Source: Saccoglossus kowalevskii (lineage: Eukaryota > Hemichordata > Enteropneusta > Harrimaniidae). Taken from it: a stretch of DNA of 31,836 bases. A model generated the notes under the pieces. The model did not search any database, was not told the origin of the DNA, and saw nothing but the letters and a program-made list of their open reading frames with translations. The position numbers were made by a program, and so were the translations under genes. The stretch is from contig NW_003134841.1 in NCBI RefSeq assembly GCF_000003605.2, positions 211,179 to 243,014 on the forward strand, read 5' to 3'. Below, in pieces: positions 1 through 31,836 of the stretch. The first letter of the stretch is position 1; every line of letters begins with the position of its first letter.

Positions 1-137
1 AATAACGGATCAAGCTGTAACTAGTCAGGTTGGCATTGAAAAGTACATGAATGACAAGGTAATGAGAATGTGACTTTCAAAATTTAAACCAGAAAATTCT
101 GAAGCTGGTCCAGTATCCGTGGAAGTGTGGGACTTAC
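1..137 (-). other. BLTP1 intron 19, partial
   Basis: Sequence left of the exon 19 donor. I searched the minus strand for the next family block and saw no match, so this is most likely intron. Confidence 0.6.
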
Positions 138-386
138 CTGAAAATGACATGCGGACCCTGTATCCACCAAGTAGAGATCAATATGATCCAATGAAACCCT
201 GGTCATTTCATATTTGACGTCTTCCACCAACTGACATGGTAATGAAGAATTTGCATCAACTCTAGTGCATAAATGTTGAGGTGCATCGTGTTGGCATTTT
301 TTGTATGGCAGAGGAGGTTGGAAGGTATTCTCAGAATTCAGTGCCAGAAAGACAAACATTTGAGCAAAGTTGGCAAGTGACTGAAT
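138..386 (-). CDS. BLTP1: BLTP1 exon 19 (residues 899-981), last exon in window
   Basis: Acceptor gttgcag, donor gtaagt, 249 bases, phase 0 both ends. It encodes IQSLANFAQMFVFLALNSEN, then a Cys/His-containing stretch KKCQHDAPQHLC, then DVKYEMTRVSLDHIDLYLVD and TGSACHFQ. Matches LACLLEWGQTFVFHVV, ICQHGIDRRFC and DLKYTMIRLAVDGADIYIVEHGCA. The next exon lies left of the window or is not recognisable in bases 1-137. Confidence 0.92.
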
Positions 387-3300
387 CTGCAACAGAACAG
401 GGAAACAATAAATGTTGCATATTATTTTTTCTTTTAAAAAATCATTGGTTTAGTAACCAGATGTGTGGTATAATGGTTAGTGTGACTACCCAGCATTGCT
501 GGTTCAACCCCTGTGGTTATCCATTGGTTTAGTAACCAGATGTGTGGTATAATGGTTAGTGTGACTACCCAGCATTGCTGGTTCAACCACTGTGGTTATC
601 CATTGGTTTAGTAACCAGATGTGTGGTATAACGGTTAGTGTGACTGCCCAGCATTGCTGGTTCAACCACTGTGGTTATTCATTGGTTTAGTAACCAGATG
701 TGTGGTATAATGGTTAGTGTGACTACCGGTACTCAGCATTGCTGGTTCAACCACTGTGGTTATCCATTGGTTTAGTAACCAGATGTGTGGTATAATGGTT
801 AGTGTGACTACCCAGCATTGCTGGTTCAACCACTGTGGTTATCCATTGGTTTAGTAACCAGATGTGTGGTATAATGGTTAGTGTGACTACCCAGCATTGC
901 TGGTTCAACCACTGTGGTTATCCGTTGGTTCTAGTAACCAGATGTGTGGTATAATGGTTAGTGTAACTACCTCAGCATTGCTGGTTCAACCACTGTGGTT
1001 ATCCATTGGTTTAGTAACCAGATGTGTGGTATAATGGTTAGTGTGACTACCCAGCATTGCTGGTTCAACCACTGTGGTTATCCATTGGTTTAGTAACCAG
1101 ATGTGTGGTATAATGGTTAGTGTGACTACCCAGCATTGCTGGTTCAACCACTGTGGTTATCCATTGGTTTAGTAACCAGATGTGTGGTATAATGGTTAGT
1201 GTGACTACCCAGCATTGCTGGTTCAACCACTGTGGTTAGCCATTGGTTTAGTAACCAGATGTGTGGTATAATGGTTAGTGTGACTACCCAGCATTGCTGA
1301 CATCACATAAAATTGCAATATTCCCTGGATCTTTTTCTAAAAACAGCACTCAAAGCATGTAAAATCTAACATGAACAAAAACTATGAAAGAACCATTTAC
1401 ATTAAGCAGACAACTCACTTGTGGTAAGGTAACTTTACCGCTGACTGATCCTACTTGAACTTCCACCAACCAGGCATATTCCAATGTCTCACTTGTTGGT
1501 GGTAAATCTTCACCAGAAAACATGGCATGACCTCTGACCTGTAGACCTGACAAGGTTAAGTGACCTTCTTTTAAATGGATGTCTGAGTCTGGTCGCTGTT
1601 GAAGAGAGAAAACAAGATCTGACGAACAGTTCTTTCATGAAAACTATAACTGTTGACATTTCTGGTGAGGGTAGACCATACATTATTTAGACTTTAGCAT
1701 AAATAATGAGATCATTTGCATATTTATTGCATGTGCTATAAAGTTTTCCACTTACTGATAGGTATCAGCCATTAGTATTGTGACAGGTGATAGTAACAAC
1801 TGTAGTTTGGTTTCTCGGTAGGTTTTGTGCATTTCAAAGCACAGCTGTTCAAGGTGAGCCACAGGAATCATCCCATCTTTCTCTCCACAGTGCTGTAAAT
1901 TAAAATAAGTGAAATGATGCAATTGAATACATCTAGAGCCAACTTTAGTGCAATTTTAGGGTTCTAATTCTGTTCAGTATCATTTTAGCTGGAATTTCAT
2001 TTTGCTGAAAATACATTTTTGTATGCAGTTTATTTTTGCTCATTTTAAATGTATTTCACTGAATATTTTTCACTGATTCATTCTTGGGGTGAAAACAGCA
2101 ACAATAAATTCCAAGTGAAAATAAGGTACTTTACAGTAGATAGGGTAACAAGTAGCTTGATTGAAGGTACCGTGAAATCTGTATTAGAAGCCACACCCAT
2201 TCATTTTGAACAATAGAAAATTGACTATTTCGTGTAGATGCTCTAATAGAAGCTGCATCTCCTCTGTTGTATTGCACCACTAGAAGCCATTACTTCTAAT
2301 ACAGATTTTACATTTACTATCACAAAAGTATAGGACTGCAGACAACTTATTCTGGTCACTTATAATTAATGTAGTACATTGCCTCAAACTACATCTGATC
2401 ATGTAAGTCACCTTTACGTCTTGTATGTTCTGAACCAATCAGAACTTGTGTTACAGGCTGCCTGCTACACTCTGATTGATTGACAAATCTTGTAAGAAGT
2501 AAGCATGATGAACATTGATTTGTGTTGTCATTTGACAGTTAGAATTGAGTTGAAATAAAGTGACCTCCACCGACATCAGATTTCAATCAAATTACAGACA
2601 ATGTGATGTCATATGGATTTATAAACTGGAAAACATATTGATTCTTACTTAACAAACAACAAATAATAATTTGAGAACAGTTATTTTGAAAAACAATGAG
2701 TAAGTAAGTACATTGTATAGTAAGAGTCAGGATAAATATAACTAGTTGACCCCTGACCTTTGGGAAGTAACCTCTGACATTGGTTATGCTGGCTGATACA
2801 GTGACACATAGTGGTCGCAAAGTAAGTGGATTGATGTTCTCGTCATCTGTTTTATCAGTTATATCCACGGCAACACTGCTGGATGGTGACATGGACTGCG
2901 ATGGGCAACTGCTGCTAAGATCTGTAAACATCTGATCTTCACCGAAAAAATTCTCCTGTAAAGGGAAAGTTAGTGATATTTGGGATTTGAAATTATTGAT
3001 TGGATATTAATAGATAAAATTTTCCTCTGTACTGCTGCTGAAAACATTGATTGTTGTGTTCTCATGTAAGTTGTGAGTTTAGTCAAAATAATGTTCAGGT
3101 CACTTACACTTACCGGTACATATACCCTACTCTATAACCGATTGCATTTTGTCACATTTTTGGCCAGATTAATATAAAAACCACCTGCACAAAATTAAGG
3201 CCAGGAAAAAAAAATTCTCTGTTCCTCGTTTCATGGAAATTTTAAAATGAGGCGGCGAAGCGATTTTTTTGTTTTTTTGTTTTTAATACTGAGCTAAAAT

Positions 3301-6300
3301 GGGGGTTAATTTGAGACAAGTACGAGTACAGGCGCATTTTGGAATGCTTTAGAAGAAAAAAAAACGTCTGAGGTGCATAGTTCCAAAAATATTTTTTTCT
3401 CAGCCTAAAATGCAACAAATTTTATTCCAATTACAGTAATTTTAATAAATGTAAGTATATCAATAAATGTATTGTTTTGACATTTTTATTTTAAAATCAT
3501 AATCATTTGTATGGAGTGTATGCCATACAGAATACAAAATAGCCCATTTGCTTTGAATAGTGCTCTGTGAGTAGCTAACTATTTTGCGATAATTAATATT
3601 CATGAATATTACCACGTACATGTAATACTATCAAACCTTTATAAGATTATGGTATGCAAGAGAGTGGTATGCGATGAAAATCACACACAAAGAAAAGAAG
3701 TCACACAATTTTGCAGTAGTATCACAAAGTTTTCTAGAAACATTTCTCGAAATTCAAATATGAATCCGTGAAAAAAATGGTTCAGTCAGACAGTTTTTGG
3801 TACTGTCATCGCATATTCACAAAGTGTGTAATATGTGCACTTCATGTTTTTTATTGCGGCAATAATCTTTCTAATAGCTCATTTATGTTTACGCAATTGA
3901 ATATTTCCAAGCATGTAGTGCATTCTGTGACAATATCAACAGAATGGGGTCACTTACAAATGTTTTCAAATCGTAAAGAGTTAATTGCATATTATCGTAC
4001 ATGGTTATAAAAGTTGCATACCCTTTAGCTTACCTTTAGGAAATAAAAGTGTCTAAGAATAGAACCATAAACAAAGAGTTCAGAAGGACCCATGTCAAAT
4101 TCCACACTTATGACGTCTGGTGGCAGTGTACTTGGATCTACTAACATACCAACAGCCACTTTAGTGTCCTTTGATGTTCCTGCTATTGTACTGTCTATAG
4201 AGGGCGCTACTTTCATTGGTAGGTCATCATTCGGTGGGAGAGGATAGTACGTGTAGCCGAGATTCAACGAGGCCTCAGGTACGGACAGGCAATCAATCCA
4301 ACCAGTACTAGTGAGCAAGAAGTGATTAGTTTGGTTGCTGTTTTCAATTATTATAAGTATGAATGTATTGTAAGTATTAATCCAATCTTATACCATATAC
4401 CACATCATATCATTTTTATCAAATATTCATTATATTAAATCAAATCATAAACAATATTCCATATCATAATATTCAAATTATATACCATAGTACACCATAT
4501 CATATATGCATATCATATTAATCAAAAATACCATATCATAGATTATATTAATCAAATTATAATTCATATACCATATCCTGTGCAAACGTTTTAATCAGTC
4601 TTGACCCAAATTGACCCTCTGTCTCATACCTTTCTTGAGTTACATTCCTCCATTTGGACTTCATCTTCTTATTAGATGTGTTACTATTATCAGTCATTTC
4701 CTTACACTTCATTCTCTCAACAGCCTCCTTACAGGATCTATCCAACGCTAGTAATACATGTCGACTGGTGGCGCATTCTGGTATGAAAATCCGCAAGTCA
4801 GCATTCTCAATCTGGTACAAACAAAAAGTATTACGTTATGAACTTTACCCCACCATTTCTTTTACCCACCATGATTCTTGACCATACTGACTGAATTGTT
4901 CAACAGGCATGTATTGTTAAGCATATATTGCTTGAAGCCTTTGACATAACAGTTAAGGTACTCTTAAGATATCCCAGTCTTGAATTTGTTATATATATGT
5001 TATAAATATTTTAATAGATTTATTTGTGAAGAGTTTTCAGCAATGATTCAGGTTATTCTGTTCAATGATTTAAAAATGAGCTCATCACAAAATTAAAATA
5101 ATGATCTGTGATGCACACTGGAATCCGGTTTATTTCCTGTATAACCATTAGACTCTGCTTTCTGTATTCATGTTTCTACAGTGCCCAATTAAACATAACA
5201 TACTTTCTGGGTTGGTTTTGTTTAGTGCACACTTGAAGCAGAATTCAAAATAGGGATCCATAATAGGATTAACTATTGATTTGAATGATTTGATACACAT
5301 ACTTTGTGAATGACAAAACTACTAAATTTGGTTCACGGCTCAATTTACTGTATATGTTAAAGACTTTGAACAAAATATATGTGACAATACATACTGCTTG
5401 TCAAACATTACAATTGTGATAATGACTAATGAGGATTCACAAAATAAATGCAAATGCAACATTCGGTTAAAAAACAAAAAGAAATAACAAAATGCACAAT
5501 TTAAACTTGAACTCATTAACTGGAATTTGTAACGATCCATATTTCATATACTTACTGCGATCCAAAACTTGATCGGTACGGTTTCAGGCAAGAAGTCAGA
5601 AAACGGTAGATTGAAGGATATATCAAAATGCTCACCGCATATCGCTAGTAAAACTATGCAATAAAGAGATATGTGAGTTAACATAGGGAATGTTGAGAAA
5701 AATAGTTTAAAAAAATGCTGTGAGTGCCATTAGTGCCAAGAAAGAACTAATTCTACACCTTCTTCAGACCTTTTCATTTCTAACTGAATGTAACAGACAG
5801 ACAACATATTTGTAGGCGACAAAAGCTATAAACATGTTGAATAGATAAATATGCACCCCTAGTTTTATAATTATTCTCACCATTCTCTTGATTCTGAGAT
5901 GAACAGTCAATCCAGTTGTATAAATTTGACGGAAGAATTAATTCAAATTCATTGAAAACAAGATTGAACTGCCACGTATAGGGTGTAAATGACAACAGAT
6001 CAGGTTTACTTTTACTTGACCAATCATTCATTAAATCTGGAAGAGATAAATAAACTATTAATAGTTTAATAAATTCCACTAACTTTATAGGTTCCAGGGA
6101 ATGTAGTATCATTTTTGGCCAGATTCCCATCGAGAATGTGCAGAGTAATTGACAAATTTATTTCGTCTTAATTGAGTCTCAGATGCAGGAAACAGAATTT
6201 ATGGTTAACATGAGCTATGTGTCTATGTCCTAGAAAATACTTGAAACTGAAGCAATGCAAAAACTGCTTAAATATTGGCATTTGTATTTTGTACTGAAAT

Positions 6301-9300
6301 CTTATTATGACAGAATCAGGTGTCTTCATACATAAAGGGGATTTAAATATGAGAACAAATTAAAGTTATTTCAATAAAAAAAATTGAAAAAAAGATAATC
6401 AAGAGAAACATACCTAGGAGAAAAGTTTTATGTTGATAAATAAAAAACCATGTTCCTTTACAGAATGTCAAATCACATTCCCACGTCTGATGGTGATTCC
6501 AAATCATAGGGTAGTGCACATTCACTGAAAACTAACAAAATAAAACAGGAAATTAAATTTGGTAAAATTTTGAATTAATGGTCAAGCATCTCAAGGTCAC
6601 ACACAGATGAACTATTTATTAACAATCTTCTAGCACTGAAACTGCAATGTGATGGTGCCATTAAAATGAATGCATAGGATGACTTGCGATGTTATGGTAG
6701 TAGCCACTGGTGGATCCAGAAATTCAGCAGGGGGGGGTGGGGGGCTCCTATTGACGTGGCCGAAGTACACCTCCTAAATCTGCGCGTGGTAGCTACATTC
6801 ACTACAAGTGCATTCATGTTTCCACAGTTCCATGCAAGCCACAACAAACCATGAGATGTCTATGAGATCTGCATTATTATGAAGGCTGCATGACCTTTAT
6901 CTCATCAACCCTTGCCATAATTTACCTGCAATGTTTCACTCTCAATGAAAGACCTGTACTGTAAACTTGTGGATGAATCTACATGTAATAACTGCCCCGT
7001 AATAGACGTCCTATATCCGTCACTATGCACAACCCATGGCACTATGACCTCTATGTACGAACCGGCACCAATATTCATATGTATAGCGTTAGTTTCCTGT
7101 CACAAAAACAACATAACAATATGGTATAACAGTATAAAGTCATGTTAACATAAGATGAAATGTAGATGGATCAACCTCAATGTAGGATGTGTAAATGTGG
7201 TCACAGAAATCAAAACTGAGAATGTGAAAAATGCACATTTATTCATATGATATTTATGCAATCATTTTATCGATTCACATCACATGACTCAATAATGTTT
7301 GTTTTTCCCTCATTAATATTAATTACAATATTTTCTTTTGTTTACAAATTAAAATATTCTGTTGTAAATAAGAGTCCTCTCAGTTCATTTTCTCATGGAG
7401 GTGATTTGTTATTTTATAATGTTGCTTTTATCCATTACATATCACATGATTAGCATAAATAGTGACAGTTCAGTCATAACATTCAGTTGTGATACAAAAA
7501 CAACAGACGAATTTCTGGTCAACAGGTCATCAACAACTTTAATTTCATTTTATAAGAATTCAGATGTAATACCATTACATAGTGAATCATACTAATTCAT
7601 GCACTGGGTCAAAGTCACTAAAATGGCATGTCGCTATTTGAAAGTGGTTTACAGTATTAATACTAGCGCCCTCCAGTGGCATTCATTTTGTTTCCCTTTC
7701 TTTTTATGTCAGATACAGTAATACTCATTATTAATAGTCATATAGTAATCTCATAAATAAAGATACTAAATTTTTCAGACAACTGAACCTAAAATTCTGC
7801 ACATATACTTTGGTTTTTATATTACAAATTTATCAATCAATAAAATATTTATTGTTATTTAATCAATAACTCATACTCAAAATCATATAATTAATTACTA
7901 ATTAAATAAATAAAACAATGCTAGCTACAAATATGAGTAAACCTGGTGACTGTTTAATTAATAAAGTATTAATTTTGTTAATCAATGTGAGAATAAATAA
8001 ACAAAAATAAACAAGTAGCTGAGACTGCACGGTGTAAACTTACTTTGCATTTTGTAAATAATATGTCAATAGTAGCGTCTGCTATAATATTTAATCTGAA
8101 ATCAAAACTTGTGGATTGCCTGGTATCCCCGGGTTGCGCAGGTTTGGTTACAACTAAGTCTTGGTAATCCACTGGATAGAACAACTTATGAAGCCACTCC
8201 CTGGAGAGAAAAAATGATAATGATGGTTAAAATATAAGTGATTGCAGCGTAAAAAGCTATGACCATTACGTATTTGTCTATTTCAATAGAAACGATGAAG
8301 TCTCCAATTTTTTCTTTTATATTTTTTTTTTTTTTTAAATTGTTTTTTATTTTTTATTTATTAACACATATTCACACCCCAGAAGGAATAGCAATGATTA
8401 CAGATATTAGTAAAAGTATACAGAAAGGAAGGAATAAAAATAAACTAATCTACAAAAACAGAAACTGACAAAAAAAAGTGTTTTTGGTGTATACTGAACT
8501 AGTATAGAAAAACGCCTCTGTAATTAACATGTATGGGCAACTGATGGAGCAAAATAGTCTATGGAATTACACAATTTACAAAATGTACCACATCTTTGTT
8601 TAATCAGAAGCACTTTTCACAAGAAATTAACACCATAGCCACACAAGTTCCCCCCACACACGCACTCACACACACTCACATTCAAAGTCAATATAACATT
8701 GTATTCATGTACATGTACATGTATATAAAGCTCAAAGCCCAATTCCATACACAGATACACACACCCATCCACCCAAATATCAGCTGATTACTTGTTGCTA
8801 AGCAGGGGTTACTAGGACAAGCACAGTGTGTGACAAGGAAATAGAAATGTGATCTACAAACTGTACAGTAGATACAGTTATGTAATACAAAACTCAGAAG
8901 GAAGTCAGAAATATAAAGTGACAGTCAGATAGTTACATTTATCAACGTATTACTCAAAATATTGTGGAAAATTAGTATTATAACTGCACCATCGTCAACT
9001 ATTGTCACAATCACAAATTAAAAACCAACATTTCATTTTCTTTTTAAATGTTGATCATGACTTGTAGCTAATAGAAAATCCAAAATTATCTGAAAATTTA
9101 TCAACAAATACATAAAAATTGGAACCAAAATTATGATGTAAAAATTAGGTGGGTGGGTTAAACCAAATGCAACATCCATATGTAGAGATAGTTATAGCAC
9201 ACATATAAATGGTGAAATTTGCATAAATAAAATATAAATAGATTTGTTTATATAATACCTTTGTCTATCTGCCCACGGTCCGTAGCTAAGGTCAGTCCCT

Positions 9301-12300
9301 TTACCACATTTGACGTTCATACCCCAGCACGGTGCCGGTGATATCTCATAATCTTCAAGTGTATCGGGCACCAAGCCTAGTCACATAAAAATAACAATTT
9401 AATATTTATTGAGTTAATTAAAAGTAATATAGTTAAATTAAGTTATTAAAACATATTAAAATAAATGTCAACAAGTACTGTAAAATCTGTATTAGAAGCT
9501 GCGGCTTCTATTAAAATGGTACATTGCAACAGAAGGGATGTGGCTTCTATTAGAGCATCTAAACATATGAGAAACGGTGAATTTTTGGTTCTCAATTATT
9601 CAAAAAGAATGGTTGTGACTTTTATTAGAGATGCCGCTTCTAATACAGATTTTACGGTAAGAGTATTGTGTTACATCTAGGGTTCTGTCAAGCCTCATTA
9701 ATATTATTAATCTACATGCAATATTAATTCATTTATGAATTATCACTTTTTGCAATCACCTAAAGTAATATTGTTATTATTCAAGAACCTTACTTATGGC
9801 AAAGTTAAGTCACATATCTCAATTGATACCAATATGCTATCAACATATTACATAACTTAATAAAAATGAAATTGGCAATAGAATAAATATAATAAAATTT
9901 GAGCAAAATATATCAAAACATTGTTGTGAAATTATGTTTTCATGATGAGATTTTGCACAAATTTATTACTACTGCCATAGCAATAGAAAGTACCAGGATG
10001 TGTGACCTTTATGGGTCATGAACACATGCATTTATAGATTGACTACTTTTAAAATTAGTTCCTTTTAATTTGCACTTAGACACATTCAGCGTTTTCACCT
10101 GAAAAATAGTGTATTCTTTGCTAATTTACATAATAATAGAACATATTAATTAACACTACTCTATTTGTTGTCATGGTAACTGAACTCTATTGTTTATTTT
10201 ACAAAGATGTGACCCTTTCATGTAATATATAGCTCAGTAAGTGATACTAAAATATAATGTAACATCACAATTCATATAACCTTTTCTCAGAATTGTAGTC
10301 GACATATTAAATTATTAAAATCACTATCAGAAACATAATACCCCATCAAGGATTTATATGGGCATGTAACTTTGTAACTTTAATATCCAGTGAAGAAGCC
10401 ATGTAATATCATTCTGTATGTCCTCAATCAAACTTATTTTCAAGCAATGGAGTTATACATGTATGTACGCTGGAAAAGTTTGATTGTGTATAAAACTGAA
10501 ATAAATATACCCTATATTGTCAAGATGTAATACAATAGGACATGCTGTGTTGCAGGCAAATAAAAGAAAACAATGGTGAAAATTGTTTCAGCGGTAACCT
10601 GCAAATAACCTTTACACTAATTTCAGTTTTATTTTTAGCAAGATTACTATAATCCCATATATGCTTTGTAGACAATGAAATGAGTGAAAGGGAAATTTGT
10701 ATATCACAGTATGAAAATATATTAATGTGAGAGTGCTCACCAGGTTCATCCCAATAATAATAGAAATCAACAGCATTAGATTGTAACATGACAAATCCTT
10801 CTCCCATGTACCGTGGTGGTCTGAAAGATAAAAAAACAAATGAGAGTTATGCTTTGGTAACATTTTTTTAGTGCATATATTTAATAACAAATAGGGTAAT
10901 AGTATGATATGTTCCAATCAAGACTGTAGATAAATATTTTTTCACTTAATATTTTATTTTTCAGTTGTTAGTAATCAGCAATGATGAAAAAAAAAATGTC
11001 TCTATTCGATACGCATTTTCATATTGGTGAAATTCACATTGTACAAAATATACCAAAATGGTATATTTTCTGAGGTGTTCTATTTGAGTAGTTGGGTGAG
11101 TGTCATGGTCAGAAATGGGATGGCATTACTTGAGAACTATTTTCTGAGGTGTTCTATTTGAGTAGTTGGGTGAGTGTCATGGTCAGAAATGGGATGGCAC
11201 AAGTACCAAACTGTGCAGGTAAAAGATTTACTAACATATTGAACTGATTTAGAGAGTGAAGGGCACACTAAAGGATTTAATTTATTGCTTTGTGGTATGT
11301 GAATAGCATAAGCCATGGCAAATAAACAAAAACATTCCTTCCAAAGAAATACATGTACCCCTGGTATATACATTTTGTATATACAGAACTCGTCATTGTT
11401 CCCCCATCTTAGATTTTAATGCATCTATCCAGACAGACTACCAGCATAGGTAGTTGACATGGCAACAAAGCCCTGATTCCATAATTTTTTTTTTACATTA
11501 TTAACTGTTTCAAGAATTACTTTCTATTAAAATCAATGTTGTAGCAATTTGAATTACATTGCATCTATGCTTGGCTACTCAACCAAAACATTACATAGAA
11601 ATATTAGTTTACATCAAATACAGTACTGGTAATAGATTTATATTCATACATGTATTTGCCACTACATGCTTTGAGCATTACGGTAATAGTTTAGAAGATG
11701 ATCAAATGGGTCAAACCATTTGGCATGGTGGGGAGGATGGGTGGTATGACATGAAATATACTATACCCAAGAATGAAGTGATAAAATTTGGCCAATTTGA
11801 AATTGATCTGAATTTAAAATGTTATCACATTTACCGGTGCACCATTTTAGCGAAGAGTGTTAATTATACGAGATGATGCATGCATACATTTAACCCTACA
11901 TTATGTGTATAAAACTGTTAACTATACAAGTGCTATTCATATGAAATACCCATCCAATATCTCATCAGACCATGTCAACCATTCAGTCATAATTACTATC
12001 AATCATCCCAGAATATTAATCATTTCCCTGTCTGTGATATCATATTACAATACACCACAATGACATACTTGAGTGAAATGCGTCTAATAGATGTTGTGTA
12101 ACACATCAATGAAAGCTAATATCAGTACTGTAGGAAATTTAAATATTGAGCTATTAAGTATGTGTACAACGAATCACTGGAAGAAATTCCCATTGAATAC
12201 ACTGGAAAAAGATGATCACATCAAAAACTCACTAAATTTAGTGTAATTTTTCTGAAAGTCTTTAATAATATTAGGATTTCTATCAATAAAAATATAAGAA

Positions 12301-15300
12301 TTTTTTTGTATAAGACACTGAGGAAATTTCCATGAAGAAAATACTATCACTATAGAAACCAGAGCAGAAACTGAGAAAATTTTCCATGACATATCAGATT
12401 GTCCATTGACCCTCGGCTTTGAACTAGACCTTTGCCAATTGACATTGGTGAGTCCATTAAAGCAGTCTGTGTCCTAATGTCATGCATTCATAAATAAAGT
12501 TTGAAAAAAATATCATTAAATTTCAATTTATTAAAAACGTTTTGACTGAAAACATCTGATCACTTTGGTAAGGCAATTACAAAGCAACAAATTATGCGTG
12601 AAACATTGGCTTCATCATATCATTCCAAGTTTACATGATAAATTTACATGAAGTATGTTTTACTATTGTGTTAAGTTTAAGTTGTGTTGTTGGCATTATT
12701 TTGTTCATTTTCCATTTGAAATTAAAAAAAAAAGGCACAAACAATCTAGAAAAATATAGCATATGAAAGCCATACAGACCCCTGCTGAAACATTCTGTCA
12801 TACAATGCTGTTTTGAATTGCTGCCTTGGGAGTAAGCTATTCACAACACTATAACAAGTATGTAATGTTCAAAGTAAAAGAGTTATCCTATAAAGGGATG
12901 GGCACAATGGCTGTACAGGAAATAAACAAGTGTGTAGTGCAGAGAAATCTTAATTGGATAGGCGTCACACTGAATTTCATTTTGTGAACATCAAGCATGT
13001 GACTCAGTGGCAGGAAGATGCCCTAAGATACTGAAAATTACACACAATAATCTACGCGAACCCAGACATCTGAAAATATCATAAATGTTGATATAATGGG
13101 TGAGAGACTTCCAATAAACACAACACAACAGCTTTAATGAAAGAGAAACTGAAGAAATCAAATTCATTACCATGGCAACACAGCAACAATCATGGACAAA
13201 TACAAATGGTTGAAAAAACATACCGGTAGTAATAGTAAAATAAAGAATACGTACTCATCCAATTGACCCTGGAATTTTGGACTTGGTGCAAACATGAGTC
13301 TGACATTCTCGCCGTTACATTTGACGCTATGCATGAATTGGTCTAATGGCGTGGAAGCCTGCTTTGTTGTGTACATAATATGGGCATCTTCAAAACTAAC
13401 AGTCAACGTAGTGGGTACAAGACGATTACCAAACACTACTCTTCCCTGGAAGATGCAATACAAATAATATGAAGATATTATGATACCGCAAAATAGGAAT
13501 GAAAACATTTTGGCAGGAGTGTTGGCTGAGGCGTAGCAGAGGTTTATGCAAACATGTACTGTCTGATTTCATACTTTGCCTTATCATAGTGATAAGTTTA
13601 TTAATATAAAACATTTCAACCCAAATGCTTGGCATATGGAACCCATAATTGGGCAAGATTTGCAAAGATTTGTGACACTTTCTCACTAAGAACTTCAATT
13701 TCTAGCAAGGCTGCCATCCTGAAAATAACTGGTAATCTTTCCATATTTTGAGTTTGCATTTCCTAGTAATGTAGGATGCAGTAATAATAAAATAACAATC
13801 AGTAATATCAGATCCTCCTATATCTATTTTACAATCTCTGTATCTACAATAGTGCTCCAGATACGATATTCATATGCATTTTTAATGAGGTCACATGGCC
13901 ATATATGGTCGTTAAGTATGTTGATCAGCTCATGTGCCCAACGTCTTCAATAAAGCACTGATTAAATGTCTACAATATGTGACGAATGATAATTAACCAT
14001 TTGTACATCTTGGGTAAATTCAGGACATTTTTCACTTACCGTTGATACATCTACTTTAATGACAGGTATTAAGTCTCTCCAGGACACATCTTTGCTTTGT
14101 TTACGAATAGCTGCCGTCTGCTCATGTCTGGAGAAAAAAAACAATAAAATAAAATCACACAGGTTTCCTCAATTGGTATTACTGTGGTGACCCTTCGTTG
14201 ACCTACCTTGTGACAAACTTTTCATGCTTGACATAACCGTCACATCCATGACCCCTAACTTTGCCTAACCTGACCTGAGATGATTTCTTTATCTATTCAG
14301 ATGACATGATGCCAACAAGCGCAACCCTGACATAGTATTGACCTTCTGTGAAAGACTCGTACCCCTGACCTTGTTTGACCTGACCTGTGATTCTCATACA
14401 CAAACACTATCCTAACCCACGCATGATCAAGCATGCCTCATAGCATGATGCCATGTGACCCCAAAACTACACTTCATTCCATTCTCAACCATTGTACATT
14501 GTACCTATATTACAACAATCAATACAGCAATAAATTAAACTCAAATGTCTACATATATACATGCATCAATGATGTTCCACTAAGAAAACACACAAAATAA
14601 TGGCAAGCATAGTTTAACTTAAATACTGTCATCACCACATCGGCTCCTTGAATAATTGAATTTACAAACAGAACAACTATGTATGATAAATCGGCACCAT
14701 CTAGTTATACTGCCATTTACAGACAAAACAGGGATAATGGGTCAGGTCACAAACATTCTGATGTATCAGATAGTTTTCTCAGTCCCTTCAGTGTTCAGTT
14801 TAGACAGGTTTCACTGTAAGACCTCTATAAACTGAACACCTCTGTAAACTGAACAATTTTCTCTTCAGTGTTTAGACAGGCTCTAAATACCTGTAAACTG
14901 GACAATTTCTTAGATACATTGTAGGTTTCACTGCATTAAAAAGCAACATACGCTATTGTAATCTCATTTCAATAGCTTAATTGGTTTAACTAGGATGTGA
15001 TCTGACTTGGAATATATCTAAGAACTAAATACCTTTTCTGATTCGCTGCTTCTTTACGTTCTTTTTCACTTTCTGGTATCATAGTAGGCTCAAGTCCGAA
15101 CTTCTTTTCAATCTGACTGAAGAGTGTAGATCTGTTGTATTGGTGATACTCCAAACCATTCAGTAATATATTTAGCCTGGTCTCCGCATGCGACATATCA
15201 GCTAGAAATAACACACAAAGTAGTTCAAATCAAATGATTACAAGTATCATGGAAAACAGTGAACTACATCAAAAATGAACAATCATTCTTAGTTTTAGAA

Positions 15301-18300
15301 ATCAAAGCTGAAATATGCAGTAAAAATATTAGTTTGAAGAATATTAGCAAATAATTCCATAAAACTTTACAGATTATATAAATATTTTAATCATCATTGT
15401 CAATGAAACAAGGATTTCTTTAGTTTTTTTCAGTTGTCTCCCAAACCCTTAAGAAAGCTGAAATTTTGTGCAAAGATTCACTACTTTGAGATCAAGTATG
15501 GTGACTCCATATTTTTTTAAACAAATATTGAAATAATGGATTGCTACCAAGTTTATTTTTAACTAACTGAAAATAGAACCAAGTACAGAGAGAAAGTACA
15601 CCGCAAAAGTTGATTGCAAATAAATAAATAAATCAAACATCAGTAATTAACACTTAGTTATAAATTGAACTGAAAAGCCACATGCTCAAGATATGCATGA
15701 TCAAGCCCCTCTATCACACTACTCGCCCACCCCTTATGAACAAAATGATTCTAACCTTGGTCTGGCATAGGTTTGTATGGCCTCCACCACCTAAATATAG
15801 CCCAGCCATCCTGTACTCTGAAAATTAAGAACACTCATTAATAATGTATTACATCGTGAAGTACATAACAATAAATGTAGTTGATATGTTAAGCACATAT
15901 AAGGGTTGGGCCAATGAATATTCTGAGGTCATAATATGTATCTATCGCAACGTACATGCATGAGCAAACTGTTACTGCTCGGCATATATACCAAAGCATA
16001 ATGGTGCACCAGTTTCCTGCCCAAGTTATACTTTGTAGTATACTTATAATAACTCTATTATTATATGTCTTCTCGATCCAATCGCTTCAATAATGAAACC
16101 AGTAAATGAGCATGAAAATTAATTTTGTTTTGAATATTGTTTGTCTCTTCTTATTTGAAATTCGATTTCCAAATAAGGTAGAATGCAAACTTCCTGTTCA
16201 ATGATGCCAAATTACTACACTCATTAAAGTTTAATATAATCATATACTGGTACATGTAGACTGTCGACAGTCCTCGGGCCTTGTAATTGTGTATCCTAGA
16301 CATTCAAAACGCAGATGGGAAATGCGAAGCATTTCACGCGAGCGACTTTAGTCCCGAGAGACTGTCCCCGTTTGCAGGTTTCTAGTTGATATGAATAATT
16401 CATAGTTGATGCTGACATCACAAAATAAATGATATGCAAATTTATTCTAAATGACATCCTGAATGCATTGGTTATTCACGTTATGAACACAATGAATACA
16501 GTCGCTCCAACCAAAATAACAAAGAAAATATTAAATCGCCTAGAACCAAGGAAACAACATGCATTGTTTGTGGCAGTGATATAGAAAATATAGAAAACAG
16601 AAGGAGATTGTTTCGGGGGATCAACAGAACTACGACATGCAAAGAAATCAAATTTGTTGTGGCAGAGACGGTCGATCTACATCTTGGCAGTTTGTATGCA
16701 TGCAGAAAATGTGGACTGAGAGCGTCGACTCTGCATAAAAACATGGATGAATTCAGGAAGAAATTTCAACAAATTAAAGTCGCAGGCATTTTCTACCAAG
16801 AGAATGGCAACTGAAAGTGGAGGATCCCTGGTTTCGAAACAAGTTCTTTTTGACAAGACGAATGTCAACAACAGCACGCTGACGAACACATCTTTTCCCT
16901 CTGTGTAGTTNNNNNNNNNNNNNNNNNNNNNNNNNNNNNNNNNNNNNNNNNNNNNNNNNNNNNNNNNNNNNNNNNNNNNNNNNNNNNNNNNNNNNNNNNN
17001 NNNNNNNNNNNNNNNNNNNNNNNNNNNNNNNNNNNNNNNNNNNNNNNNNNNNNNNNNNNNNNNNNNNNNNNNNNNNNNNNNNNNNNNNNNNNNNNNNNNN
17101 NNNNNNNNNNNNNNNNNNNNNNNNNNNNNNNNNNNNNNNNNNNNNNNNNNNNNNNNNNNNNNNNNNNNNNNNNNNNNNNNNNNNNNNNNNNNNNNNNNNN
17201 NNNNNNNNNNNNNNNNNNNNNNNNNNNNNNNNNNNNNNNNNNNNNNNNNNNNNNNNNNNNNNNNNNNNNNNNNNNNNNNNNNNNNNNNNNNNNNNNNNNN
17301 NNNNNNNNNNNNNNNNNNNNNNNNNNNNNNNNNNNNNNNNNNNNNNNNNNNNNNNNNNNNNNNNNNNNNNNNNNNNNNNNNNNNNNNNNNNNNNNNNNNN
17401 NNNNNNNNNNNNNNNNNNNNNNNNNNNNNNNNNNNNNNNNNNNNNNNNNNNNNNNNNNNNNNNNNNNNNNNNNNNNNNNNNNNNNNNNNNNNNNNNNNNN
17501 NNNNNNNNNNNNNNNNNNNNNNNNNNNNNNNNNNNNNNNNNNNNNNNNNNNNNNNNNNNNNNNNNNNNNNNNNNNNNNNNNNNNNNNNNNNNNNNNNNNN
17601 NNNNNNNNNNNNNNNNNNNNNNNNNNNNNNNNNNNNNNNNNNNNNNNNNNNNNNNNNNNNNNNNNNNNNNNNNNNNNNNNNNNNNNNNNNNNNNNNNNNN
17701 NNNNNNNNNNNNNNNNNNNNNNNNNNNNNNNNNNNNNNNNNNATCCCTGGTTTCGAAACAAGTTCTTTTTGACAAGACGAATGTCAACAACAGCACGCTG
17801 ACGAACACATCTTTTCCCTCTGTGTAGTTTACGATAATGTCCCACTGGTATTCTTTGCAAGAAATATCATGGTAGTCATGATAAAATGAGAGACATCTCC
17901 ACGACTATCATTTGCATATGAAAGTACCCGGCTCTGGTAAGAAATCTTACCAGTGAATTGCAGCACCGGACAGTCAGTCATGCCTAACGACACTCCATAC
18001 TTCCTGTCCCGGCGTTCACAATTTATTCACACCTATTATGTTCATACACAATATTCAATAACATAATAACAGATTAATATTAGGTATGACTGTTGACAGT
18101 CTATGCTAGATGTAGAATGTACTATACATGAAATCTTTCAGTTGATACATATAAGGGTTAGGCCAATGAATATTATTTTGCTGCCAGTATGTTGCAATGG
18201 ACATAAAAACTAATTCAGTTAAAGGCCCAGGTATACTATAAATACGCTCCTAAACAATAGGGATTATTTCCTTGCTTGTCACGCTGTAGTAAACAACTCC

Positions 18301-21300
18301 AGCCAAGCTCCGGTAAAAAACGCGTTTTTCTCGAACTCACAGGTCAATTATGTCGTGCCAAAGTGGATGTATGTGACTATGAATACCACAGCAGTGACTG
18401 TGTGTAATATTTATGACAATAAAGAGTGTACGAGCTGAGATTTTGGCGGATAAAAGTCGGGGAAAGGGACGCGCTACAATTCTTGAATAATTAACTACTG
18501 TCAATCAAAGTCACGTGATGTTGGACCCCTGAAACAGGATGCGTCATAGGCTATGCAAGTGATTAACAACACTCATTAGCATAGCCACACCTCCAATTCA
18601 CACTTGCCTTGGAATTGGGCCTTTAATTGAACGAGCTTCTATGTATATATTTCAGTTATCAGTGTTTTTTATGTCTTAACTTAATGTAAGTGGAGCAAAG
18701 TATACATTATTTAACAAACACACATATCACTGTAAGTCGTATGTGACCATATCAATGTACCATGGTATATCTATATGTTTAATAATTCTACTGACAGCAC
18801 ACAATGCGATAAAATACTGAATAATTGGCCTCAAACATTCCGAACACACATCTGTGTTCGTAAACAGCTGTACATATTTAAATAAATACCAAACATTTTC
18901 ATTTTTGTCATATTTGTAACAAAACATGATATTTGACGACAGTCGGTAATGCGGAGTATGGTTCATATGACTTTTATTGATTTCTTTTTCTGTATTTTTG
19001 TTGCCGAATATTGATCGCACTGCTAATTTGTGAGAAAACGGGTGTACAGAATTCACATCGTGTGCAATGCAAGGCAAACACTGAGTTTACTGGTGTACAT
19101 ACCTTAGGGAGAAATCTTCATTCATAAAATGGAAATCACGGAACATAACTTTACCCGACAACAACGACACAGAAAATGAACCTGAAAGGCAAAATTAGAC
19201 AAAATTAGTTTTGTTTCTACTCTCTGGTTTTTGAAATAGAAAATAGAAACACAACAAAAAAAGTACATAGACCGTTCACTGGTAGTGTAAAACCAAAGTT
19301 CAAATCATGGAACTCTACTGCTAGAAAGTTTTCCTGTGTAAAGTAAATATACGGTACTCAGGGCCAGAGGTGACTATTTTATGTAGAAAAATGCAATTAT
19401 TTGTGATTTTAAATGTTGTTTATTTTCTGTATTTTGTGACATTCCATACTGTGTCTAATAATGATGTCCATGTTTCTGCTTGAACAGTTTTTCATAAAGA
19501 AGCAGGTGGTGAGGCAATTGTTTTAAATATTTGATGGTGTACAAATTTTGCAGGTTTGTCAATTGAGGGCACTGTACATTGGTGAAATAAGTAAAAAGAA
19601 AAAAAGATGGACTATAAACATCTTTTTTTGGTATGCCTGACATTATCAAAAAAATAGATGAGGTAGGTAAGTTGGTAACAGTAAATAAGCGCCCTCCAGT
19701 GGCTACTTTGCAGTTTGGCCATTAAAAAATAGACACACACAAAATTGTCACGTTTGTTTTGTTTGGCCCTATATTTAGCATATAGTATAACCACTAATTA
19801 ACTAAATCAATAAAACAAAATTATTCAAATATATACACTGTAAAATGCTGGTACCCTTTCATTTAGCAATTAGAATTTTTAGGAGAACCTGAGACAAGAA
19901 GGTCTTGCTTCTGTACTTTTTATAGCGAACTACACATTCCATATGTATTTTATTGTTCCTTATATCCTTATTGTATTCTAATCTAGATCCCAGAAGGGAT
20001 ACGATATCAATAAATATATCAATAAAGGTTATGTGTACATTTTTGTAGATGCTCTAATAGAAGCTGCATCCCCTCTGTTGCAATCCACCATTTTAATAGA
20101 AGCCGTGGCTTCTAATACAGATTTTACAGTATTATGTATACCTGCCATATGTAGTGATTATTTGCATACATGAATGATGTGGTTACTGTTCTGTACTGTT
20201 CTGGGGTACTGTGAAGGGGTCAATTATTCACTGGGTTTTAATTTTGCGCCAAATTAAAACCCACTGAATATGTAGAATTTAGCATAGAACACATTATCTA
20301 AATGATAAAACCCATTGAATATGCCTGAAATAGTAAAATCAGCGAAATTTAAAACCAGTGAAAATTAGTCATTTTACAGTAAATACTAGAAATCGTGAGC
20401 CTACAGTGTACCAGTAGTGGGTGTTTTTATTTACATCTTGATGGCAGTGTTAGACAACTGTGAAGATGTACTAGTACATCACTACATTTTATATGCAATA
20501 GACATGCACAGTCACAGAAATAAACATGACACGCCTACTTAAAGGGGAACTTGTCAATCCAAGGGATTGCATCAGGGAATCATGGGACACATTTTTTAAC
20601 TTTAGGCCAGACTTTTTTTATTCCTTGTTTCTCAAGTTTTTATAAGGCAATTTTCATAAGGAGGGCGGGAAAAAAATAAAATTAATTCTTTTTTTTCATT
20701 AGATTTGTGTGATTCTCAACAAATTGTAAGTCATTCATTCATTCGGAGAGAAGAAATGAAATACAATTTTATTCCATGTATAACCTTGTTTCTCATCTGC
20801 GCAGGACTTTGGTACTTTGATTATGATACTCCCATGAAAATGCAACTTGAGTTTGTTATGCGGCGGGTGGAAAAAAAATGAAGATAAAAATAATTTTTTT
20901 TTAGCAATTTTTTTCACTTACAAGTTGGTGGGTGCGAGAAATTACGCTGAAATAAAATGTTTTTTTTTATTTCATTTTCGGCTCCTGTTCATTCAACGGG
21001 TTCGCGAAACAAGTGATAATAAAAGTCTGGCCTTATTTTTGCCAGGCTTTACATACTATTTTATTTGAAATTGCTAAGATTCAGAGGTCAAAGTTCAAAT
21101 TGCCACATAATTTAAGAGCACTGCAAACAGAGTTTAAGGCAGCGTTTGCAAACATTTTGTGACATATTTTAAAGAAATAGCAAAAACCATTCTGATGATA
21201 AAAATGAGTTTCTGCACTTTACACTACAACATACAATTTTGAAAACCATTTTAGCTTTGCAAGTAACTAATAAGCAAAAAATCAAAAAAAATCAAAACAG

Positions 21301-23818: not shown

Positions 23819-24250
23819 GTTGCAAAACACTGTAGTAGCAAGCGATCCTGGTTGAAATCGTGTATTGTTGCGGGCTATTTTGGGCAGTGTTCAGGTGATC
23901 GGATGAGCGAAACCGGATGAACTCATGCAAACGAGAGGACGCACAGAGATGGGTCGAGACGCCGCACCAGCAGGTAGTCGTACAAGTTTAGCTGCAAACT
24001 GATTGACAATCAGACATCCAAGGAAGCAACACACATACTGAGATCTTCCATGCTCATCTTGGTGTCATTTTTACGTACTTGTTGATTTGAAATAACACAT
24101 CCCCCAATAAAACACGACTTCATGGGGCTCTGCTCATTGTTGTAACAGTAACACATTTGTAGACGCCATGTTGAATGAAAGAATACAAACATTATTGCTA
24201 GGTGGCGCTATTTTCATGCCAACCAGAATTTGTAATTTTGACCGCGTGAG
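23819..24250 (-). promoter_or_regulatory. BLTP1 5' leader and probable promoter region
   Basis: Upstream of the start codon, base composition is less AT-rich (23880-23990) with several CpGs. At 24175-24163 the minus strand reads attcaacatggcg, a TISU/YY1-like element; its ATG (24170-24168) opens an 11-codon upstream ORF ending in tga. At 24195-24208 the plus strand ttgctaggtggcgc fits the CTCF core at 11 of 14 positions. No TATA box is obvious. The transcription start is not determinable here. Confidence 0.45.
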
Positions 24251-25237
24251 GTCGTACTCACCAATAATGGATACTAAATGATTCCAACAATGAACGTTTT
24301 TTTAAACACTGTATACTCTTTTCAGTTATTAAGATCTTTTTAAAACTTTTCAAACATGAAGATAGTATTTGCACACCTACCCCTAAACAGCTATGCAATT
24401 CTGTCTTAATGAATTGCTGATGTTAATTTGATATCTTGGATGGGAAAAAAGCTTTTGAGACTGGAGTGACTATTTGCCGGGAAATATTCTGTGTAATTAT
24501 CATTTAGGTCATCTAGTGTTCGGAGTTGCAAATAATTCGTAAAATACACTAGACTCTACTCATCGGTTTCAAGTTGTCGATGACGTCACGGCACAGGGAC
24601 CCCAAGAACTATAATCAACTAAGTATACGCAGTCTCTATGAGCGGGGGGGGGGGGGTGTCGGCTGGTATCTTAAATTTCTTACACTAGATACCAGCCGAT
24701 AGCCGATATCATGTTTTAGTTTCCAAAATAATCGATATCACACAGTCTTGGTTCAGCATGGTTTCTGCGCCCTCGGCGACGGATTCAGACGCAACCCCGA
24801 ATAGCTCTTGCAGATACATTTATCTAAAGCATTTGCATATTCCATGTTCCGTGAGAATTTATCTTGTCTGATCCCCGGGCTTTGTGCGCCTTTTTCGAAT
24901 GCATATCTTGCCTGTGTGTCGAGGTGCGGGAGTGGACAGGTTTTCACAGGGGACAGCGTAACGCGTTGTAAAATTGTGCGAGGAATTTGTGATTGGACGA
25001 CTAGTAGAATTCGGGTGACGTAAAATATTTAAATATTTGTTTCATGAAATTTCCTCTGTATTTTTTTTTTAAATCTACCCGTGCTTCAATGGACAATCCC
25101 TGTTAGAATAAATATCACCGCGTGTATCGTATGCGATTGTTGAATATCAAAACGCTCAAAGCGGTAAAGTGTGATACACGCATTATACGTTACGTGGTTC
25201 ATACCTGGTATTCTCCACGCCTTCTACTTATGTGAAA
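24251..25237. other. Intergenic stretch with poly-G and hairpin
   Basis: Contains the poly-G/hairpin at 24644-24698 and, at about 24740-25020, a GC-richer block with an atttgcat octamer (24831) and a reversed CCAAT box (gattgg, 24992). The two overlapping ORFs on opposite strands in that block have no recognisable domain. It could be a promoter or a decayed element. Confidence 0.5.
24644..24698. repeat. 13-base poly-G followed by a perfect 12-bp stem hairpin
   Basis: Thirteen consecutive G (24644-24656), then cggctggtatct (24660-24671), a 15-base loop, and agataccagccg (24687-24698). The arms are perfectly complementary. Confidence 0.93.
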
Positions 25238-25522
25238 ATGGACATATGGAGTATACTCGCATGTACATTGATATACCTCTGGACACTTCAAGGGATAACA
25301 ATTGTGTTAATGGAATATGAAATATCGATTATGCTCTATCGTTATGCGATGGCCGCGAATGGACATGGATTTTTTTATTTCTTGGTAAATGCTAATTCAA
25401 AATTCTCATGTCCGATGTTTGTTCCTAATACACATTTCGCAATAGCCGTATTATCTTTTCTATCTATGTTGCTGGTGTTTCACATCGTCAAAATCCAATG
25501 CAATACTATATATTACAAGTAA
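25238..25522 (+). CDS. Unidentified small ORF, two predicted membrane segments
   Basis: ATG at 25238 in a good context (aaaatgg) opens 94 codons to a taa stop. The earlier in-frame gtg at 25232 is not a likely start. Hydrophobic stretches lie near residues 6-26 (ILACTLIYLWTLQGITIVLM) and 67-85 (FAIAVLSFLSMLLVFHIV), joined by a loop with one Cys and YRYAMAANGHGFF. I do not recognise the family. There is no clear promoter, polyadenylation or splice context, and AT-rich DNA readily encodes hydrophobic residues by chance, so it may not be a gene. Confidence 0.25.
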   Translation: MDIWSILACTLIYLWTLQGITIVLMEYEISIMLYRYAMAANGHGFFYFLVNANSKFSCPMFVPNTHFAIAVLSFLSMLLVFHIVKIQCNTIYYK

Positions 25523-26490
25523 CCTGTAGAATGCTGTGTTGGTAATATTTTTATATCGATTTTTGTTGCATTTGCAGCAAATAGTTACCAAACAATGAGA
25601 AATCTATTGGATTGGATTTACCTCTCAGCTGGCTTCAAATACATAGTTGAAGCCTGCCTAACCGGTGCTTATACAGGATTTAATTACAGCACCTAGACGG
25701 TCTGTGGTTACAGCTTCATGTTCCGAGTAATCGCAAGAAATTGACATTGCAATAGAAAATAAAAGACTGGCACTCCCATGCAATTAATAGCAAGTGAAAT
25801 GCCTGGGATTGAAACACAGATTCTAAAGTCACTGATGTAGGCAATGACTAACGAGGTAGTTTATTTAACCAGTGCTGAACCACAAGCTGAAATTATAATT
25901 AAGTTAAGTTAATTTGTTTATTTCAATTTCTCCTGTCAAATAGAATACATCGGTGAATGGATGTTTTGGGGTGTAGTTTACACTGTGTATAAAGTGGTAG
26001 GGTTGGGTGTCATATAATTTGTTCATTTCCAACTCTCATGAAGTAACATAGAATTTCACTTAATTTATTTTCGTTTTCAAGCATTACGTGTGAATCCAAT
26101 TTTCACTGTGCTGTGTCAAGTCTCAATGGAGTTTGAGGGAAATGGCATTTTCACTGGAATTTATTTTAGCGGAAAAATGTTTACAGTGAAAATGAAGTAT
26201 TTCACATTATTACATATGTACTGCAGTTTATTTTGATTCGTCCCTGAAATCAAAATCAGTATTTCCACACCACATATGCAAATGAGGTCTGAGAATAACA
26301 AAGTAGTTCTTTCGAAACATAGCAGAAAGAAACTATATTTAGAAGTACGATATTTTATACTTGGATACATGAATATACGACCAATTTCGGACAATCGCCC
26401 TCAAAATAATTGATGAAATAGTTTCGGGACCCATCGACAGTAGAAAAGTAGAAACTTGAGGCGAAAATAATGAAAAAAAAAACGGCTGTT
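25523..26490. other. Intergenic, with possible decayed MITE at ~26051-26205
   Basis: tagaatttcacttaatttat near the left and agtgaaaatgaagtatttca at the right resemble, in inverted order, the ends of the element at 31444. Otherwise nothing recognisable. Confidence 0.4.
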
Positions 26491-26495
26491 ACGGC

Positions 26496-26616
26496 CCGAC
26501 CTGATTTCAGGTCGGTAAAATAGGGTAACTCGCATAGGATGGAACTGTAGCTCCCTGGTTTCGCGTTAACACCACGACGAACCAAATGACAGACAGCGAA
26601 ACCAAGCGAGCTACAG
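26496..26616. repeat. Two adjacent inverted repeats
   Basis: ccgacctga-tt-tcaggtcgg (26496-26515) is a perfect 9-bp stem. It is followed by ctgtagctccctggtttcgc (26545-26564) against gcgaaaccaagcgagctaca(g) (26596-26616), imperfect, with a 31-base loop. Confidence 0.8.
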
Positions 26617-26918
26617 AACTGCAGCTAACTAATTTCACGCAATTGTGATGTTTGTTTTAAGTGTACATCACATGGAATACTACGATTGAGAGAACTTGGT
26701 GTATGTTGAGTTTTATAAACCCTGAAGGGCTCTTGGAAGACCCCCCCCCACGCAGTAAAATTAGCGATTGCCATGGAGGCGCAACCATCAACATCGAAAT
26801 ACACTGTGACGTCATATTTTTTTATGATAACAACTGTGGCTCCCCTGATCAGCACAGACTTGTGATCTGCTGTGATAACATTGCTCATAAGTTGCTTCAT
26901 TAACAAGAACACATATAT

Positions 26919-27460
26919 CAGGGCCGTAGCTAGCTTTTTTCACTAGGGGGGCAGCAATGTATTTTTTATAAAATGCGTATAAATGTATAAAGGCGTAGAG
27001 GCTGGGGGGTATATCTATCTATTTTTAACAATAATATCATCTTGATATATTTTATGAATATATACAAAACACGGGATATTACAGTATGAACTTTAATACC
27101 TGAAACACTTTTGTTCTATCTTCATATATAAGCAACATTAATGTACAGGACTGATTAATACAATTGATAGTTGTACAATACACAGTTTATGTTTACAACT
27201 TTGGCAATAGCATATTAATTTATCTCCAGTTAGCTTTCCTCGAATAAATCACTTCTGGGGAAGAAATGATGTCTTTGTCTCGGTGTACTAGTAACATTGC
27301 AAGAGCACTGAGTCTGTCTTGAGCCATGCTAGATCGTGTCCATAACTTCACCCGCCGAAGTGCAGACACAGAACGTCTCGGGAAGAACGTTCACAGGTGT
27401 TGTAAAGAATATTGTGTGAATTCTGTGGGTGGCTGGGAAATATTTGACATCATAAACAGC
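26919..27460 (-). pseudogene. hAT-family transposase C-terminus, frameshifted remnant
   Basis: Minus strand 27390-27220 reads SVSALRRVKLWTRSSMAQDR and then LSALAMLLVHRDKDI, ending in a taa stop. This is the hAT C-terminal dimerisation motif (S.LRR.K..LRSTM...RL..LALL.IHRD). The preceding part, DVKYFPATHRIHTIFFTTPV (about 27455-27376), is the expected upstream block but in another frame, so the copy is broken between them. At 26919-26934 cagggccgtagctagc resembles a hAT terminal repeat, about 285 bases beyond the stop. The matching far end and an 8-bp target duplication were not found. Confidence 0.75.
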
Positions 27461-27496
27461 AACGGCCTTGTATATGTAAACGGCCTTGTATATGTA
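27461..27496. repeat. 18-bp tandem duplication
   Basis: aacggccttgtatatgta occurs twice without spacer, at the upstream edge of the hAT remnant. It explains the repeated GLVYV in a spurious plus-strand ORF. Confidence 0.9.
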
Positions 27497-27776
27497 TATT
27501 TAATAACAACGGCGAACAACGCCGTAATTTTATCTTCGAGTACGAACGACCGGTTCTTGCCAACTTGAACCAGTCACTGCCCTAGCGCACCCGCGGACGT
27601 ACTACTTTGGTTTCACCATGACAACGACGTAAACAGATCGATCCAACGTTTCATCATTCTGACTGTGTGACAGTTTGTGTGGTTATTTTATATTAACATA
27701 TATAACTTACTGAATTTATTAATATGGCTAACATTTCTTTAGTTTGTTTTTGTCTAAATTGTATGTTTGGATAAAA

Positions 27777-27938
27777 ATGTCGTTGGGCATACCAGAGGGT
27801 ATTTTGACAGGATACAACGAAATTCTCATTGAAAAAATAACTCCCGCTACTGAGGAAGAAATAAATGAATGCCAACTAATAAATAATACTTTTGATTTGT
27901 TTAGAACTCGAAGATATTTCTTTTCCGGTAGTATGTAA
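27777..27938 (+). CDS. Unidentified 53-codon ORF
   Basis: ATG at 27777 opens MSLGIPEGILTGYNEILIEK, then an acidic ITPATEEEINECQLIN and a basic end with RTRRYFF, stop at 27936. The composition is less biased than the surrounding AT-rich DNA, and acidic-helical followed by basic residues is protein-like. gtagta near the end (at 27928) could be a weak donor, making this a first exon. No family recognised. An upstream in-frame ATG at 27762 is possible. Confidence 0.25.
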   Translation: MSLGIPEGILTGYNEILIEKITPATEEEINECQLINNTFDLFRTRRYFFSGSM

Positions 27939-31699: not shown

Positions 31700-31836
31700 G
31701 ACGGTCGGTGTTCTATTCCTCATCTTGCTGGTCACAGTTACAATTCAGAGAATGTGTCTTGTCACCGAATCCATCCCATTAGAGGTTCCTGCCAGTTGGC
31801 TGATGAATTGTTTTTCAACTCACCATTGGAAACATG
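31700..31836 (+). CDS. Second coding exon of the type II membrane protein, partial
   Basis: Acceptor gtcgggcag at 31699. In the phase 0 required by the first exon it is open to the window edge, reading DGRCSIPHLAGHSYNSENVS and then CHRIHPIRGSCQLADELFFN. Three Cys in a lumenal position and an N-x-S site (NVS) fit an extracytoplasmic chain. Other frames contain stops, which supports the assignment. Runs off the right edge. Confidence 0.6.

Follow-up and report, generated by a model that had tools for sequence, protein, structure and literature searches.

The array and its setting

The stretch of Saccoglossus kowalevskii DNA that was analysed (31,836 nucleotides, hereafter the window) carries, near its left end, two exons of a BLTP1 gene on the minus strand, and about 83% of the intron between them is taken up by a tandem array of 79-bp units. 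The features of this locus are as follows.

84-386, minus strand: BLTP1 exon on the 3' side of the intron; its downstream border is approximate
387-1418, minus strand: BLTP1 intron enclosing the array, about 1032 bp long, with GT...AG borders in the sequence and predicted splicing
1419-1600, minus strand: BLTP1 exon on the 5' side of the intron; its upstream border is approximate
443-1299, plus strand: tandem array of 10 full and one partial 79-bp unit, the monomer very probably being a tRNA-derived SINE head (TRF, script, alignment)
443-521, plus strand: copy 1, in which alone both the A box and the B box match their consensus in full (TGGTATAATGG ... GGTTCAACCCC, 35 bp from start to start)
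680-764, plus strand: copy 4, 85 bp, with six additional bases on the anticodon side (alignments)
923-1003, plus strand: copy 7, 81 bp, with some substitutions and two 1-base insertions (unit sequences)
1332-1336, plus strand: first downstream T run of four or more, a putative Pol III terminator

The exon frames on either side of the array each matched the Pfam family BLTP1_N (40.1 and 94.6 bits), singly below the 100 bits of its curated cut-off. With the array bridged, the two frames gave one continuous BLTP1_N match (profile positions 874-1017, 133.4 bits) and also matched the solved protein 9cap with an E value of 1.9e-13. Since the boxes of the units read on the plus strand and the BLTP1 exons on the minus strand, the array had rightly been called antisense to BLTP1 in the first-pass annotation, as far as the orientation of the boxes is concerned.

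TRF reported a period of 79, 10.7 copies and 96% matches at 443-1299, and a unit-finding script resolved the same interval into 10 full units and one partial unit, which confirms the 11 units of 79 bp claimed earlier. Eight units are 79 bp long, copies 4 and 7 being longer and the last, partial one measuring 59 bp (1241-1299); half of the 10 full units are identical, and six distinct sequences occur overall. A SINE-derived satellite was taken to comprise at least four head-to-tail units, a number that the array exceeds. Short sub-repeats (TGGTT words) are present in the unit, and internal duplication was not significant, 17 of 200 shuffles being as good; an origin of the 79-mer from within, by growth of sub-repeats, was rejected for this reason. 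At the head-to-tail junction each unit carries extra bases, CCATTGGTTTAG, which resemble that unit's own A-box stretch AATGGTTAG and form one of its hairpins; they may be the remnant of a second, collapsed head.

Several other features were seen in the window. At 16824-17829, identical 87-bp stretches stand on both sides of 832 N (16911-17742), which looks like an assembly artefact at the gap. A MITE-like dispersed short repeat occurs in at least three places (2177-2312, 9476-9659 and 20038-20131), the first with the inverted ends TCTGTATTAGAAG ... CTTCTAATACAGA. A 62-bp sequence is repeated directly and without change after a spacer of 12 bp (11064-11125 and 11138-11199), and a near-perfect 46-bp palindrome, 91% self-complementary, lies at 20225-20270. 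An open frame of 119 amino acids with paired cysteines (16455-16814), for which Pfam gave sub-threshold matches only, some of them to zinc ribbons, may belong to a different gene as one of its exons, or come from a mobile element. A scan of the window for bacterial promoters and terminators was empty, which has no bearing on a eukaryote.

Boxes, hairpins and likeness to tRNA

The A-box word is present in all 11 units, with one substitution in copy 3. The B-box word GGTTCAACC occurs in 10 of 10 full units, and the full GGTTCRANYCC is fitted by copy 1 only; hence the earlier statement that every unit carries both words held for the A box, while the B box proved to be confined to the full units and mostly imperfect. 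When the A and B pair was scored against the Pol III consensus words, copy 1 had no mismatch and the array consensus had one, and for neither did any of 1500 dinucleotide shuffles yield a pair with one mismatch or fewer. Elsewhere in the window, over 1301-16900 and 17751-31836 on both strands, no A and B pair with two or fewer mismatches was found. The A box precedes the B box as in tRNA genes, and the distance between them was counted as tRNA-like; the 35 bp from A to B is nevertheless shorter than the spacing in tRNAs.

Short perfect non-overlapping stems cover 38 of the 79 bases of the unit, compared with 15.9 ± 8.0 in dinucleotide shuffles, none of 1000 shuffles reaching the observed value. 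Inverted repeats had been described as covering nearly the whole unit: packing with hairpins beyond that of shuffled sequence was borne out, and the extent given for it was generous. Folding of the unit, which the first-pass annotation had proposed as a check, gave energies little or no better than those of shuffles. The six distinct window sequences were close to shuffles (z from -0.10 to -0.95); a second folding test gave z of -0.72 for one window unit, -1.62 for copy 4 (16 of 200 shuffles as good), and -0.76, -0.24 and 0.11 for the relatives described below. Strong RNA structure as the driver of the array was rejected on these energies, the lowest of which is that of copy 4.

ARAGORN found no tRNA gene in the window, Rfam gave no match there at the gathering threshold, and the window units had no tRNA match in Rfam even at E values up to 10. 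Strings of three units built from the window consensus, from copy 4 and from the monomers of two related arrays, C3773 and C4123, were likewise without an ARAGORN call. A cluster of tRNA genes was accordingly rejected, in agreement with the earlier remark that no canonical cloverleaf forms.

Alignment gave a different picture. Among 21 tRNA sequences, the best local alignment of the unit scored 33 (Gln); 4 of 2000 shuffles did as well, as did 1 of 1477 other segments of the window. After 26 distinct host tRNA sequences were added, tRNA-Gly(TCC) came out best with a score of 40 (0 of 1000 shuffles), a figure that is flattered because this tRNA had come to light through a unit-derived pattern; the Gly, Arg and Gln isotypes all scored well. 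The alignment is significant and colinear, and the likeness to host tRNA-Gly extends from the D arm to the T arm, at about tRNA positions 7-58. Compared with the tRNA-Gly(TCC), Arg and Gln genes, however, the unit has a shortened anticodon arm and an unmatched acceptor stem, and yields no cloverleaf call.

The relatives did give tRNA matches in Rfam, weak ones. When Rfam was run on four stretches (L079, L080, L091 and L093), matches appeared in L079 only, in seven units of the C4123 array, and every one of them was to the tRNA family RF00005, at 17.4-17.8 bits (E 2.9-3.9 over 4227 families), far below the gathering score of 29. These matches span model positions 8-63 of 71, and the D and T arms are formed in both of the alignments shown. 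Weak as it is, the match carries weight because no other family appears and because its register agrees with the boxes. The C4123 monomer also keeps the T-arm hairpin, with five pairs and a seven-base loop. Absence of a tRNA covariance match had been named in advance as evidence against a tRNA relationship; the window units indeed have none, and their relatives match RF00005 weakly, below threshold. An acceptor-like stem shows a matched change, C3773 having TGACC..GGTCA, C4123 TGACC..GGTTA and the window TAACC..GGTTA, with too few changes to count. An origin from tRNA can escape tRNA and Rfam scans of a locus, yet emerge through its relatives.

Relatives of the unit in the host genome

The host assembly (572 Mb, 4830 contigs, the window lying on one of 392 kb) was searched with patterns taken from the unit and from its relatives; as the search scores the best candidates, all counts are lower bounds. 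The whole 79-bp unit gave at least 11 matches, all at the window locus, and a B-box 25-mer with up to three mismatches gave at least 10, all inside the array. With an A-box 25-mer at least 13 matches were obtained, namely the 11 units of the array and the SINE-like single copies L071 and L072. A spaced A-to-B pattern gave at least 11, of which nine lie in the array, one is the tRNA-Gly gene in L049 and one is a further SINE-like copy, L059. The idea of a genome-wide satellite of the exact monomer was therefore not upheld, the 79-bp variant occurring at one locus among the matches scored. Exact-match searches in viral and prokaryote genome contigs returned nothing, as expected for a eukaryote.

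Diverged relatives of 77 bp were found in at least three further arrays and in ten single places. A pattern from the middle of the SINE head had at least 22 matches, 10 in the C4123 array, two in the C3773 array and 10 as singles on ten other contigs, and its reversed-pattern controls had none in the host genome. In the stretches examined, TRF resolved 77-bp units in 9.7 copies at C4123, 7.0 copies at C3773 (in 541 bp) and 4.0 copies at C4182. A head-to-tail junction pattern, able to find this one junction only, matched at least 21 times, 10 in C3773, seven in C4123 and four in C4182 and nowhere else among the matches scored; the matches are spaced at 77 or about 2x77 bp, and the reversed-pattern control gave none. 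SINE-like copies thus occur singly in the same genome, next to at least three arrays of the homologous 77-bp head, joined at the same point, and through C3773, C4123 and C4182 the tandem head is present at more than one locus. The first C3773 unit lacks eight alignment columns on the anticodon side (the arrays in L091 and L093 show shortened units), and at C4182 the final unit is truncated.

A dimer of the window unit aligned to the C3773 monomer with a score of 100 and to the C4123 monomer with a score of 71, the maxima of 1000 shuffles being 54 and 46. The alignment runs through the junction (TAACCAGATGTGTGG in one against TGACCTGGTGTGTGG in the other), the A box, CCCAGC, the B-box region and CTGTGGT. 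According to this alignment, the window unit has about 9 bases fewer than its 77-bp relatives on the anticodon side and about 11 extra bases at the head-to-tail junction, which brings it to 79 bp. Copy 4 fills six of the roughly nine missing positions, where the 77-bp relatives have sequence too, and for that reason looks like an older, less deleted form of the window unit.

Four SINE-like copies, three of them obtained by searching for words from the window unit, were made into a profile; it matched every unit of the window array, 11 of 11 (E values 5e-7 to 3e-5), and the reversed control gave nothing below 0.9. With the bait 25-mer left out, the unit was not significantly similar to seven SINE-like copies (267/2000 and 284/2000 shuffles) or to C4123 (317/2000), and was weakly similar to C3773 (48/2000). 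The case for homology consequently rests on the alignment of the whole unit and of the junction, not on the second half of the unit by itself.

The last unit at C4123 passes into sequence resembling the body of the SINE-like copy L088 (score 39, reached by none of 300 shuffles). For the other 12 SINE-like copies, 4 to 288 of 300 shuffles did as well as the C4123 tail, so that the strong match is to one copy of 13. The C3773 array apparently starts at TGACCTG, preceded by unrelated sequence, which is consistent with TGACCTG being the 5' end of the SINE-like element. The window locus consists of heads only: no SINE body is recognisable in the flanks of the array, and the parts that follow the head in a complete SINE copy (body, LINE-related part, simple tail) are not present. 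An end unit extended towards the SINE terminus, which is usual and not required in SINE-derived satellites, is likewise absent at the window and present at C4123. The link to dispersed SINEs is given by the whole-unit match to the 77-bp arrays, one of which continues into a SINE-like body.

The host also has true tandem tRNA clusters outside the window (L019, L020, L023, L044, L047 and L049). Their periods are about 560 bp for Arg(TCG), mostly about 237 bp for Cys(GCA) and about 570-680 bp for Thr(TGT); Ala(TGC) and Gly(TCC) genes alternate on opposite strands, about every 540 bp.

Origin of the array

From these results, the array is very probably a passenger minisatellite that arose when an old SINE's tRNA-like head was amplified in tandem. 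A tandemised head of a tRNA-derived SINE had been among the origins suggested earlier, and the related arrays and single relatives in the host genome lend it support. On this reading, a head or a head multimer would have come to lie antisense in the BLTP1 intron and would have multiplied in place through unequal exchange or replication slippage; homogenisation would then have let one shortened variant take over. The array would do little and be removed with the intron by splicing, and the role of a passenger is the most likely one.

The monomer could instead derive directly from a gene or pseudogene for a tRNA such as tRNA-Gly(TCC), and have been amplified in tandem without a SINE stage. The score of host tRNA-Gly(TCC) against the unit and the existence of true tandem tRNA clusters in the host speak for such a course. 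We nevertheless consider it very unlikely: within three mismatches of the 25-mer TGGTATAATGGTTAGTGTGACTACC there are the SINE-like copies L071 and L072 and, among the matches listed, no tRNA gene; the C4123 array continues into a SINE-like body; and L049, which holds the tRNA-Gly gene, was itself found by a unit-derived pattern. That the array is an unrelated intronic minisatellite, its boxes and hairpins being due to chance or to sub-repeats, is scarcely credible. The TGGTT sub-repeats and the confinement of the exact monomer to one locus among the matches scored would suit it, whereas the inner duplication is not significant (17/200), the box test (0/1500 shuffles) argues against chance, and the whole-unit homology to the other arrays strongly disfavours it.

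Two further readings are compatible with amplification of a SINE head. Pol III transcription of the array from its boxes is possible, judging from the sequence, as T runs of four or more are missing inside the array and a T5 follows at 1332-1336; if Pol III acts, copy 1 with its full A and B consensus would offer the best start, and the RNA would extend through the array to the T run at 1332. That this makes the array a working unit, producing structured or small RNAs antisense to BLTP1, is highly improbable in view of the folding energies, the imperfect B box of the other nine full units and the short box spacing of 35 bp. The other reading concerns how the heads were spread. They may have moved as multimers, either by retroposition of a multi-headed SINE RNA or as circular DNA, and not have arisen locally each time, a course that we regard as possible and rather doubtful. 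It would explain the single shared junction, since all of the at least 21 junction matches lie in arrays at three loci, and it accords with the apparent start of the C3773 array at TGACCTG. On the other hand, inspection by eye revealed no target-site duplication on either side of the window array, breaks could recur at one place owing to a two-base microhomology (TG) at the junction, and the pattern used detects only this junction. A more elaborate version, in which read-through Pol III transcripts yield head multimers that are reinserted with a fixed junction and give rise to poly-headed SINEs, to head-only arrays and to some antisense Pol III units in genes like BLTP1, seems unlikely.

The proposed derivation from a SINE head has described counterparts. 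In the squamate satellites sSat1-3, a portion of a tRNA-derived SINE, about 70-290 nt long, is repeated in tandem, in a few to hundreds of copies; they usually have a longer end unit reaching into the SINE, longer arrays are more homogeneous, and a subtelomeric bias is part of their description (Vassetzky et al. 2023, PMC10702118). Tandem units made of a SINE part are common to both systems, and the extended end unit is matched at C4123. Compared with sSat1-3 as described there, the host and the SINE family are different here, the unit is the tRNA-like head alone, few loci were found, and the window array is without the extended end unit (PMC10702118). In the limpet Patella caerulea, PcH-sat is likewise an invertebrate satellite made from a SINE; its 179-bp unit is the 3' part of Nin-SINE, without A and B boxes, and makes up about 10% of the genome, whereas the window array is a 5' head with boxes whose variant lies at one locus (PMC11121367). 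Tandem repeats with a tRNA-like part are also given for amphibians, namely newt PolIII/TAN, which is transcribed in vitro, Xenopus OAX/satellite I and Rana/polIII; their units are longer and, in that account, no SINE of the same genome is clearly tied to them, whereas related SINE-like copies are present in this host (PMC10702118). With the squamate and limpet counterparts described, the window array very probably belongs to the known SINE-derived satellites. Neither the sequence GGTATAATGGTTAG as such nor tandem repeats derived from tRNA, in molluscs or in connection with Pol III, turned up in literature searches aimed at them.

The relatives in this genome offer a one-genome case of the passage from a dispersed retroelement to tandem repeats, with intermediates in the form of single heads and of four arrays, that of the window included. 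The series also shows one junction common to three arrays, the dominance of a shortened variant and the survival of an apparently older copy 4. Its least ordinary point is the junction common to three loci, which may mean that multimers rather than single heads were spread. If the shared junction does reflect moving multimers, the view of how SINE-derived satellites start would change.
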